A stretch of DNA of 64,000 nucleotides from Desulfuromonas sp. AOP6 (GTDB lineage: Bacteria; Desulfobacterota; Desulfuromonadia; Desulfuromonadales; SZUA-540), in assembly GCF_009731355.2 (NCBI RefSeq), contig NZ_AP022810.1, positions 1,082,001-1,146,000 of the forward strand, given 5' to 3'. The notes beneath the pieces were generated by a model. That model was not told where the DNA came from and did not search any database. It worked only from the letters and a program-made list of their open reading frames with translations. How positions within the stretch are numbered: the stretch's first letter is position 1; each line of letters begins with the position of its first letter. Of this stretch, positions 52,583 through 55,220 are shown piece by piece. The translations under genes and the position numbers were made by a program.

Positions 52583-52850
52583 GGTATCCTCGTTTTCCTG
52601 AAGGTTTTATTGTCAGATCAGGTCACAATAAAACAGTTTTTATTTTTTGATGACGCCGATAAACACCAACAAAAGTTCATTTTTGTTTTTTAAAACAGAT
52701 ATTTGTTTGGCGGGATATGTGGATTTTTCATTTGGTTGGATTTTGTACCTGGCTCTAATTTCTATATTATAAAACCAAGTTTGTCATTAAAAAAATGACC
52801 GGATGGCCATTTGGTCGAAAAATAAGGGAGCTGCGCCAGGGAGGGTTTTT
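52583..52850. other. AT-rich gap between chemoreceptor and HD-GYP genes
   Basis: A weak hairpin (52797-52816) followed on the minus strand by seven T residues (52789-52795) may terminate HD-GYP transcription. A TATAAT -10 box on the minus strand (52766-52771) has no clear -35. No ORF or RNA gene is recognised. Confidence 0.35.
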
Positions 52851-54983
52851 TCAGGCAGGATAGGCAGCTGAGCTGACCGTGCGCATGAAAGCATGCACGA
52901 CCTCGGGGTCGAATTGCTGACCGGACCCTTTTTGCAGATGCGCCATGACTTCGTCGTGGGGCCAGCCCCGGCGGTAAGGCCGATCGGAAATGAGGGCGTC
53001 ATACACATCAGCCACGGCCAGGATGCGTGCGCCCGGGGCGATCTCCTCCCCCTGGAGTCCCCGGGGATAGCCCTGGCCGTTGAACCATTCATGATGCTGT
53101 TCGACAATCGGCAGCACATCCCGGTAGGCCTGAATGGGTTCCAGGATGCGCACCCCTTTTTCCGGGTGGGTGTTGATGACGGAATATTCCACTGGATTTA
53201 AAGGGATGGGTTTTTCCAGAATGGCATTGGGAACGCCGATCTTGCCGATATCGTGCAGAAGGCTGGCGCGATGCAGCAGGTCGAGGTCGCCGGCGGACAG
53301 GCCGAGGGTGCGGCCAATGGCGAGAGCCAGGCTGGTCACGCGTTCCGAATGACCCGCTGTCCAGGATGATTTGGCGTCAACCGTGCGGGCCAGGGCGGTC
53401 AGCGTGCCGTAGTTGAGGTCGGCCAGTTCCTCGATAAGCCGGATGTTGGCCAGGGCAACGGTGATCTGGTCAGCTATGGCCCGCGCCCGCACACGGTCTT
53501 CCCGGCTCAGGTGAGGCGCTGTGCGGTAGCCGAGCAGCAGCGCGCCCTGGATGCTGCCGTTCTGATGAATGGGCAGGATAAAGAAGGAACCTGTCCCTCT
53601 GCGGGCGAGGGGGTCGAGCAGGTTGGGAAGGATGTCGGCGGCCTCGGTAAAAAAAGCGTCCTCAATTTCACCCAGGGCCTGGATTTCCGTCGCCTCGAGC
53701 AGGCAGGTGTGTTTCTCCTCTGTCGCTGTCTGTTCTCTGGCCGGGGCAGCGAGAAAGGTGCTGAATTGATTCTGTTGACCCTCAGCCAGAGTCAGTCCGA
53801 GGCAGTCACAGCGCACGATGCGGGGGAGACGGGTCAGAACGGCCTGGACCAGCTTTTCGCGGTCCAGAGCGACCAGGATGGCCCGGGTGGTTTGTCCCAT
53901 TTCATCCAGAGTATAGAACTGGTTGTCGAGTTCTGTGGCCATGGCGTTGAAGGACTGGGCCAGTTCGGCGAACTCGTCGGCGCTGTCGACCTCCACGGCC
54001 TGGCTGAAATCGCCCCGCCCAAGTCGGCGGGTGCCTTCTTTGAGCCGCTGCAAGGGCACCAGACTGCGGCGGATAAAGATCGCGCTGACCAGGAGAACAC
54101 TCCACAGAGAAACGGCGGCGACCAGATAGAAGGTTCGGCGAAAACTGTACAGGGAAACCAGGGAGACTTCTCGGGGCTCGTGCAGGGTGATAATCCAGTC
54201 GTCTTCGTCAAAAGAGTCGCGCAGGGATACGGCGACCTGATCGGCCATGCAGTTGCGGTCTCCGCACAGACTTGCGACGGACTGCCCGCTAACGGTGGGG
54301 TTCGCTGCCAGAGGCCGCTTCTGCCGATGTAAAGGGGGGGCATAGAGCCTTTGCCCCCGGCTGGTGGCGACGAATATGTTGATGTGGGGGGGAAGGGCCT
54401 CGGCCGCTTTTTCAATGAGCACCGAGGGCGAAATCTCGGCCCACAGGAGCCCTGTCGCGGAGCTGGCCGGATCAAGCCGCACCGCCAGATAGATCGCCAG
54501 CTCATGCGGGCCGTCTGCCGGAATCCAGAGAATGGCGTTCTCGCCCATTCTCCGGAGGACTTCAGCGGGGGGAGGTTGCCAGCCGGAATTCTTTTCCCCC
54601 GACAATAGAGTCGGGACCGCTTCTTCGGTGAACAGGGTGAGGCTGGTCAGCGGCTGCCTCAGGTCTAAACCAAGGGACGCGAAACGGGCAGGGAAGGTGG
54701 ACGGATCGGCCTGATAGGAGTGCGCCAGCAGATGGAGTTCCTGATGCAGAACCATGAGCTGTCCGTGAAGGAGCAGGCCGACGTTTCGACCCGTCTGACG
54801 CAGGCGATGACGGGCCTGGTCCTCCAGCTGGTCGGCAACCCGGTAATAGGAAACCACGGCCAGAACGGTGACCGGTAGAATGGTACAGACCAGGAAGACC
54901 AGAAAAATTCGGCGTCCCACCCGGCTATGAAAGTAGGACTTCAGTCGCTTCATCATGGCAAATGGACGCTGGGCAAAAACCAT
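52851..54983 (-). CDS. Membrane receptor with HAMP, GAF and HD-GYP domains
   Basis: A 710-residue predicted cyclic-dinucleotide phosphodiesterase. N-terminal transmembrane helix (about 25-48), a ~240-residue periplasmic sensor, a second helix (about 285-305), HAMP (RRSLVPLQRLKEGTRRLGRGDF), a GAF-like segment (about 360-530) and a C-terminal HD-GYP domain with HDIGKIGVPNAIL, the HH pair in VEQHHEWFNGQGYPRGL and ADVYDALISDRPYR. The GYP motif is intact as QGYP, so activity is likely. Start is uncertain: ATGs at 54983, 54956 and 54953, none with a strong ribosome site. A GEMM riboswitch and terminator precede it, implying feedback by the class of nucleotide it degrades. Confidence 0.92.
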   Translation of the reverse strand: MVFAQRPFAMMKRLKSYFHSRVGRRIFLVFLVCTILPVTVLAVVSYYRVADQLEDQARHRLRQTGRNVGLLLHGQLMVLHQELHLLAHSYQADPSTFPARFASLGLDLRQPLTSLTLFTEEAVPTLLSGEKNSGWQPPPAEVLRRMGENAILWIPADGPHELAIYLAVRLDPASSATGLLWAEISPSVLIEKAAEALPPHINIFVATSRGQRLYAPPLHRQKRPLAANPTVSGQSVASLCGDRNCMADQVAVSLRDSFDEDDWIITLHEPREVSLVSLYSFRRTFYLVAAVSLWSVLLVSAIFIRRSLVPLQRLKEGTRRLGRGDFSQAVEVDSADEFAELAQSFNAMATELDNQFYTLDEMGQTTRAILVALDREKLVQAVLTRLPRIVRCDCLGLTLAEGQQNQFSTFLAAPAREQTATEEKHTCLLEATEIQALGEIEDAFFTEAADILPNLLDPLARRGTGSFFILPIHQNGSIQGALLLGYRTAPHLSREDRVRARAIADQITVALANIRLIEELADLNYGTLTALARTVDAKSSWTAGHSERVTSLALAIGRTLGLSAGDLDLLHRASLLHDIGKIGVPNAILEKPIPLNPVEYSVINTHPEKGVRILEPIQAYRDVLPIVEQHHEWFNGQGYPRGLQGEEIAPGARILAVADVYDALISDRPYRRGWPHDEVMAHLQKGSGQQFDPEVVHAFMRTVSSAAYPA

Positions 54984-55003
54984 TTTGGGTGAACTGTCAT
55001 CAT

Positions 55004-55035
55004 AAAAAAATCCCGTCTTGCAGCCGAAGACGGGA
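55004..55035 (-). terminator. Riboswitch-associated terminator
   Basis: On the minus strand a 9-bp stem (55027-55035 with 55011-55019) with loop is followed by seven T residues (55004-55010), just 21 bases before the HD-GYP start. Its 5' arm and loop contain CTTCGGC (55023-55029), which is complementary to GCCGAAG at the 3' end of the aptamer (55076-55082), giving a plausible antiterminator. Confidence 0.85.
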
Positions 55036-55074
55036 CCGATTAAGGGAATAGTGGTTTCGTAATCCCATTACTGT

Positions 55075-55163
55075 GCTTCGGCAGCCCGGCGGTCCTTGCC
55101 TCGAAAGGATGAGAAGGATCCGTGGCTTTGCGTCACCAGATTGCTCGGGCTTTGCGTTTTCGG
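55075..55163 (-). ncRNA. GEMM-I riboswitch aptamer (c-di-GMP or cGAMP type)
   Basis: On the minus strand two copies of ACGCAAAGCC (55148-55157 and 55124-55133) frame a short stem capped by a GCAA (GNRA) tetraloop (CCCGA-GCAA-UCUGG). The second box continues GCCACGG, then a UCCUU/AAGGA stem and CGGGCUGCCG, the 3' signature of GEMM-I. It is followed by a terminator and an HD-GYP gene. Class I members bind c-di-GMP or, in many Desulfuromonadales, 3',3'-cGAMP; I cannot assign the ligand by eye. Confidence 0.82.
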
Positions 55164-55192
55164 CGGACATTGGTTTTGATCCGCATCCGCGA

Positions 55193-55220
55193 TATTGACC
55201 AGTTTTTAATCCAGGGTCAA
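55193..55220 (-). promoter_or_regulatory. Promoter of the riboswitch transcript
   Basis: On the minus strand TTGACC (55215-55220) and TCAATA (55193-55198) are 16 bases apart, about 30 bases upstream of the aptamer. Confidence 0.5.

Follow-up and report, generated by a model that had tools for sequence, protein, structure and literature searches.

A GEMM-I riboswitch with cytosine at position 20 and a predicted ligand-OFF terminator ahead of an HD-GYP gene in Desulfuromonas sp. AOP6

In GEMM-I riboswitches, one base is known to set the choice between two second messengers: c-di-GMP switches such as Vc2 (GEMM-Ia) have G at position 20, and cGAMP switches (GEMM-Ib) have A. Here we ask what such an RNA may sense, and in which direction it may act, when this base is neither. 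The RNA in question lies in the leader of an HD-GYP phosphodiesterase gene on the minus strand of a 64-kb stretch of the Desulfuromonas sp. AOP6 genome (the window, 64,000 nucleotides, to which coordinates refer unless a contig is named). Our preferred reading, with a probability of roughly 0.7, is that a GEMM-I switch with C at position 20 (C20) controls the HD-GYP gene by transcription termination and that the ligand would turn the gene off.

A GEMM-I aptamer with a variant specificity base

The features of the aptamer are as follows.

55077–55166, minus strand: GEMM-I (c-di-GMP-I) aptamer, RF01051 at 52.9 bits against a gathering cut-off of 35 bits; 96.7% identical to its ortholog
55156, minus strand: specificity base, C at Vc2 position 20, immediately 5' of G21 in the covariance alignment; also C in the ortholog (L017)
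55129, minus strand: equivalent of A47, a conserved A, from the alignment to the RF01051 model
55081, minus strand: equivalent of C92, a conserved C that pairs with the second ligand base, from the model alignment

The initial annotation of this DNA had called a GEMM-I riboswitch, and an Infernal search (cmscan, 64-kb window) bears this out: RF01051 (c-di-GMP-I, GEMM-I) matches 55166–55077 on the minus strand over its full length (model positions 1–87) with an E value of 1.7e-7, and it is the only Rfam match within the window at gathering cut-offs. As in V. cholerae Vc2, the RNA has the core GACGCAAAGCC, a GNRA loop on P2 (GCAA), C92 and A47, which in Vc2 numbering is the base that stacks between two ligand bases (PMC3764141). 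It scores below four of its six sibling GEMM-I RNAs in the genome, P1 seems weak by eye in the alignment of both the window sequence and the ortholog, and the leader as a whole has an unremarkable folding energy. Judged by sequence and structure, the element is a real GEMM-I riboswitch, belonging to a known class with a variant base and not to a new class, and it most likely senses a cyclic-dinucleotide signal.

Unlike in Vc2-type RNAs, however, base 20 is C, and most siblings have a linker one nucleotide longer ahead of G21. The initial annotation had left the choice between c-di-GMP and cGAMP to a check of G20 versus A20, without considering C; the base at 55156 is neither the G of GEMM-Ia nor the A of GEMM-Ib, and the same holds in the ortholog. 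A register shift that would place A or G at position 20 was ruled out: pairing with C46 sets the place of G21, and the C directly adjoins it. The 10-mer ACGCAAAGCC occurs twice in the aptamer on the minus strand, around position 20 (55157–55148) and in the conserved core (55132–55123), possibly by chance.

Two further families share the clan of RF01051, namely RF03167 (c-di-GMP-I-GGC) and RF03168 (c-di-GMP-I-UAU), and some of the C20 RNAs in relatives exceed their cut-offs. In our reading, these names seem to spell out which bases occupy the ligand-contact positions, a scheme by which the window element would be 'CAC'. Assignment to RF03167 was dropped, as the element reaches 49.5 bits against a cut-off of 59.

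Conservation within the genus

The ortholog L017, from another genome of this genus, also has C20; that genome has kept the divergent DUF6178 gene as well as the chemotaxis-receptor gene downstream. Identity between the two sequences is concentrated in the functional parts, with 97% in the aptamer and 100% in the terminator, compared with 70% in the leader, 73% in the upstream spacer and 81% at the coding start. Since the ortholog has the same base and the aptamer and terminator stand out against flanks of 70–73%, the C20 aptamer looks to be under selection, as far as one ortholog from one genome pair, a small sample, can tell. In genome G001, the G21–C46 pair appears swapped to C–G in five GEMM-I RNAs (L008, L016, L018, L020 and L022), which read GCCAA... 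with GACGGAAAG or similar and in which base 20 stays G.

This conservation bears on the reading that the RNA is a degenerate GEMM-I element that no longer binds a ligand and whose terminator acts as a constitutive attenuator. Such decay would fit the literature, where G20 counts as one of the key nucleotides for ligand recognition and is highly conserved (PMC3764141), and the RF01051 score below those of most siblings; it sits badly with an aptamer conserved at 97% between flanks of about 70%, and still less well with the recurrence of C20 described below. We regard it as highly improbable.

C20 as a minor state of the GEMM-I family

The source genome holds seven GEMM-I RNAs, three with G20 (L001, L006 and L007), three with A20 (L002, L003 and L004) and the one with C20. 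With a strict pattern (GNRA-type loop plus GACGCAAAGC core) applied to 136 genomes of the order, we counted 8 C20 sites against 301 with A, G or U (roughly 2.6% C20); among 150 listed of those 301 there were 99 G, 50 A and 1 U. Searching species genomes for C20 gave at least 125 matches on at least 119 DNA stretches, and P2 forms five or six of its six pairs in 121 of the 125 matches listed. The C20 RNAs that were re-tested exceed the gathering cut-off of some family in this Rfam clan, and the genes behind C20 RNAs look by eye like the usual GEMM kinds, that is, secreted or surface proteins, multihaem cytochromes and sensors.

Given the census of the order and the recurrence across phyla in folds that are intact, C20 is, on these sequence comparisons, a natural minor state of the GEMM-I family, found at 100 or more loci across many phyla. 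Neutral decay would not give such recurrence with an intact P2, which argues further against a degenerate element.

Some genomes and groups are rich in such RNAs. A Geobacteraceae metagenome-assembled genome (G244; L083–L085 and L094) has five C20 GEMM-I RNAs. In a Burkholderiales group (L114, L115, L135, L143, L146, L151, L170, L185, L189 and L191), the secreted proteins behind the C20 RNAs resemble one another and have a TDRLIVKYR-like motif, and in several of these genomes no sibling with a base other than C at position 20 matched the pattern.

C20 RNAs might form a third natural specificity group, for example one that answers both c-di-GMP and cGAMP or another cyclic dinucleotide; we consider this improbable. 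No ligand is named for C20 GEMM-I RNAs in the papers searched, a set outside which lie the subscription papers Kellenberger 2015, Nelson 2015 and Weinberg 2017, which may mention such RNAs.

A terminator switch ahead of an HD-GYP gene

Six further features belong to the leader, the gene and the stretch just past the gene.

55192–55220, minus strand: promoter-like pair, -35 TTGACC (55220–55215), 17-nt spacer, -10 CAATAT (55197–55192), read directly; 93% identical in the ortholog
55076–55082, minus strand: switching strand A, GCCGAAG, which includes C92 and C93; kept in the ortholog
55023–55029, minus strand: switching strand T, CTTCGGC, in the terminator 5' arm and loop; kept in the ortholog
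55004–55037, minus strand: intrinsic terminator from terminator prediction, a stem-loop followed by a run of seven T; identical in the ortholog
52851–54956, minus strand: HD-GYP phosphodiesterase gene, membrane sensor–HAMP–GAF–HD_5, from a domain search; longest ORF from 54983
52793–52812, minus strand: terminator-like hairpin from terminator prediction, 39 nt past the HD-GYP stop codon

A promoter had been proposed upstream of the aptamer, and the conserved pair of boxes is indeed there; it is weak, however, with a -10 box too poor for the consensus scan to call the pair. The proposed terminator and 7-base complement are both present: the hairpin reads GGTCCCGTCTT-CGGCTGC-AAGACGGGATT (55037–55009), with the T-run at 55010–55004, and GCCGAAG (55082–55076) is complementary to CTTCGGC (55029–55023). 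Taken alone the complement is only suggestive, because 45 of 2,000 dinucleotide shuffles of the expression platform (2%) reach the same level. It gains weight from its complete conservation in the ortholog and from the paralogs L001 and L002, which have CTTCGG at the equivalent place, 20–21 nt before the T-run; in two of the checked paralogs (L003 and L007) a 6-base complement is absent.

The A:T duplex is predicted at -17.5 kcal/mol, against -15.6 kcal/mol for the local hairpin of the terminator, and in folding prediction A:T has the lowest energy as long as the terminator 3' arm has yet to be completed. In the absence of ligand, strand A, with C92 and C93, would pair with strand T, and RNA polymerase would read into the HD-GYP gene; with ligand bound, strand A would stay in the aptamer, the terminator would form and the gene would be off. 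Binding would free the terminator because the strand that pairs with its 5' arm includes the ligand-contacting C92. Since it is the terminator hairpin, not the A:T helix, that has a T-run behind it, bound ligand is expected to promote termination.

The initial annotation held that the sign of the response could not be read directly. We infer a ligand-OFF response from the competing strands and from the logic of Cd1, a c-di-GMP-I switch of Clostridioides difficile in which the aptamer 3' strand likewise forms an antiterminator with the terminator 5' arm (PMC9262584). The two differ in gene, base 20 and organism, and OFF is measured for Cd1 whereas it is predicted here. The window switch has the Cd1-type layout, in that its aptamer 3' strand complements the terminator 5' arm, includes C92 and is followed by a T-run behind the terminator hairpin.

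The opposite sign has its own precedents. Geobacter GEMM-Ib switches (A20; pilM and pgcA) share the fold and bacterial class with the window element, whose genome also has A20 siblings and a likely Hypr cyclase; the window RNA differs in its C20, and its layout is predicted to be OFF, in contrast to the ON switch of pilM (PMC9262584). Were the switch of this pilM type, binding would prevent termination and the messenger would induce its own degrader, the negative feedback that one would most simply expect of a phosphodiesterase. In G. sulfurreducens, every gene with a GEMM-Ib switch ahead of it fell on gacA deletion (PMC6456294). Against this, the arm with which strand A pairs is the 5' arm of the terminator, whereas the T-run comes after the other arm; A:T therefore blocks the terminator, and the duplex uses C92, which the ligand requires. 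We therefore give a ligand-ON switch low odds and keep to ligand-OFF, under which the RNA probably stops transcription of a signal-degrading enzyme when the signal is high.

The enzyme

The HD-GYP target that had been proposed is confirmed by its domains, with HAMP, GAF and HD_5/HD in the product (HD_5 at 1.7e-40) and the motifs HDIGK and HHEWFNGQGYP, in which N replaces the usual D of HHExxDGxGYP. The gene start needs revision, from 54983 to the ATGATG at 54956/54953, which is the more likely one, since the ATG at 54983 has no counterpart in the ortholog. The terminator-like hairpin past the stop codon suggests that the gene is probably a single-gene unit. Among the loci examined, no riboswitch was found ahead of more distant HD-GYP homologs.

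By sequence, the best solved relative of the HD-GYP domain is 5z7c, a 3'3'-cGAMP-specific phosphodiesterase (E = 6e-45), followed by 4mcw (1.7e-31). We treat this similarity as a lead on the predicted substrate, and for that reason did not use it to choose the ligand of the switch.

Which ligand

For the ligand, c-di-GMP, perhaps bound at lower affinity, comes at slightly under even odds in our estimate; 3',3'-cGAMP is a tentative candidate, and both together or something else is unlikely.

The cGAMP case is a variant of the preferred reading in which C20 works as a functional equivalent of GEMM-Ib and the HD-GYP protein may be a cGAMP phosphodiesterase. The Watson–Crick face of C, with its N4-H donor and N3 acceptor, would by our reasoning present the pattern of A20 toward the Hoogsteen edge of the ligand adenine. 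The source genome has three A20 riboswitches and encodes a REC-GGDEF protein of 456 aa (L253; G000:C1:2217000-2219800) with a GGDEF motif and a serine at the Hypr position (GHLAGS), the criterion for cGAMP cyclases (PMC6456294, PMC7288161), which makes it a likely GacA-type cGAMP cyclase by sequence. The placing of 5z7c ahead of 4mcw points the same way, but likeness to a cGAMP enzyme is no substrate test. Elsewhere the picture differs: in many C20-bearing genomes all other GEMM-I RNAs have G20, and A20 siblings occur in only about 10 of 50; in Cohnella mopanensis, where the siblings are G20, none of 13 readable GGDEF domains has the Hypr serine. Co-occurrence in other phyla thus leans towards c-di-GMP there. 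As a guide to the ligand in the window it was set aside, since the source genome has siblings of both kinds.

A 302-aa GGDEF protein of the same genome (L248/L254; G000:C1:761278-761751) has E at the Hypr position (GHLFGE).

Significance

The initial annotation had also proposed a feedback loop in which a signalling nucleotide controls an enzyme likely to degrade it. A loop is possible, and its predicted sign, which follows from the OFF direction, is that the ligand represses the degrader. Should the enzyme cleave the nucleotide that is sensed, this would be positive feedback and perhaps a latch; should it cleave a different one, the result would be cross-talk between two messenger systems. 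Were the third specificity group real, the sensor here would link two messenger systems by switching off a phosphodiesterase.

The A20 RNA L002/L252 (G000:C1:1280740-1283937) precedes a 1,000-aa CHASE4-PAS-PAS-GGDEF-EAL protein and also has CTTCGG in its terminator. In this genome, GEMM-I switches thus stand ahead of at least two enzymes of the c-di-GMP type.

A conserved third letter ahead of a phosphodiesterase, in a genome with predicted machinery for both messengers, tests the reach of the one-base rule for GEMM-I specificity. If the switch is OFF, the circuit would be one in which a ligand represses a degrader, as a latch or as messenger cross-talk, and not simple homeostasis.
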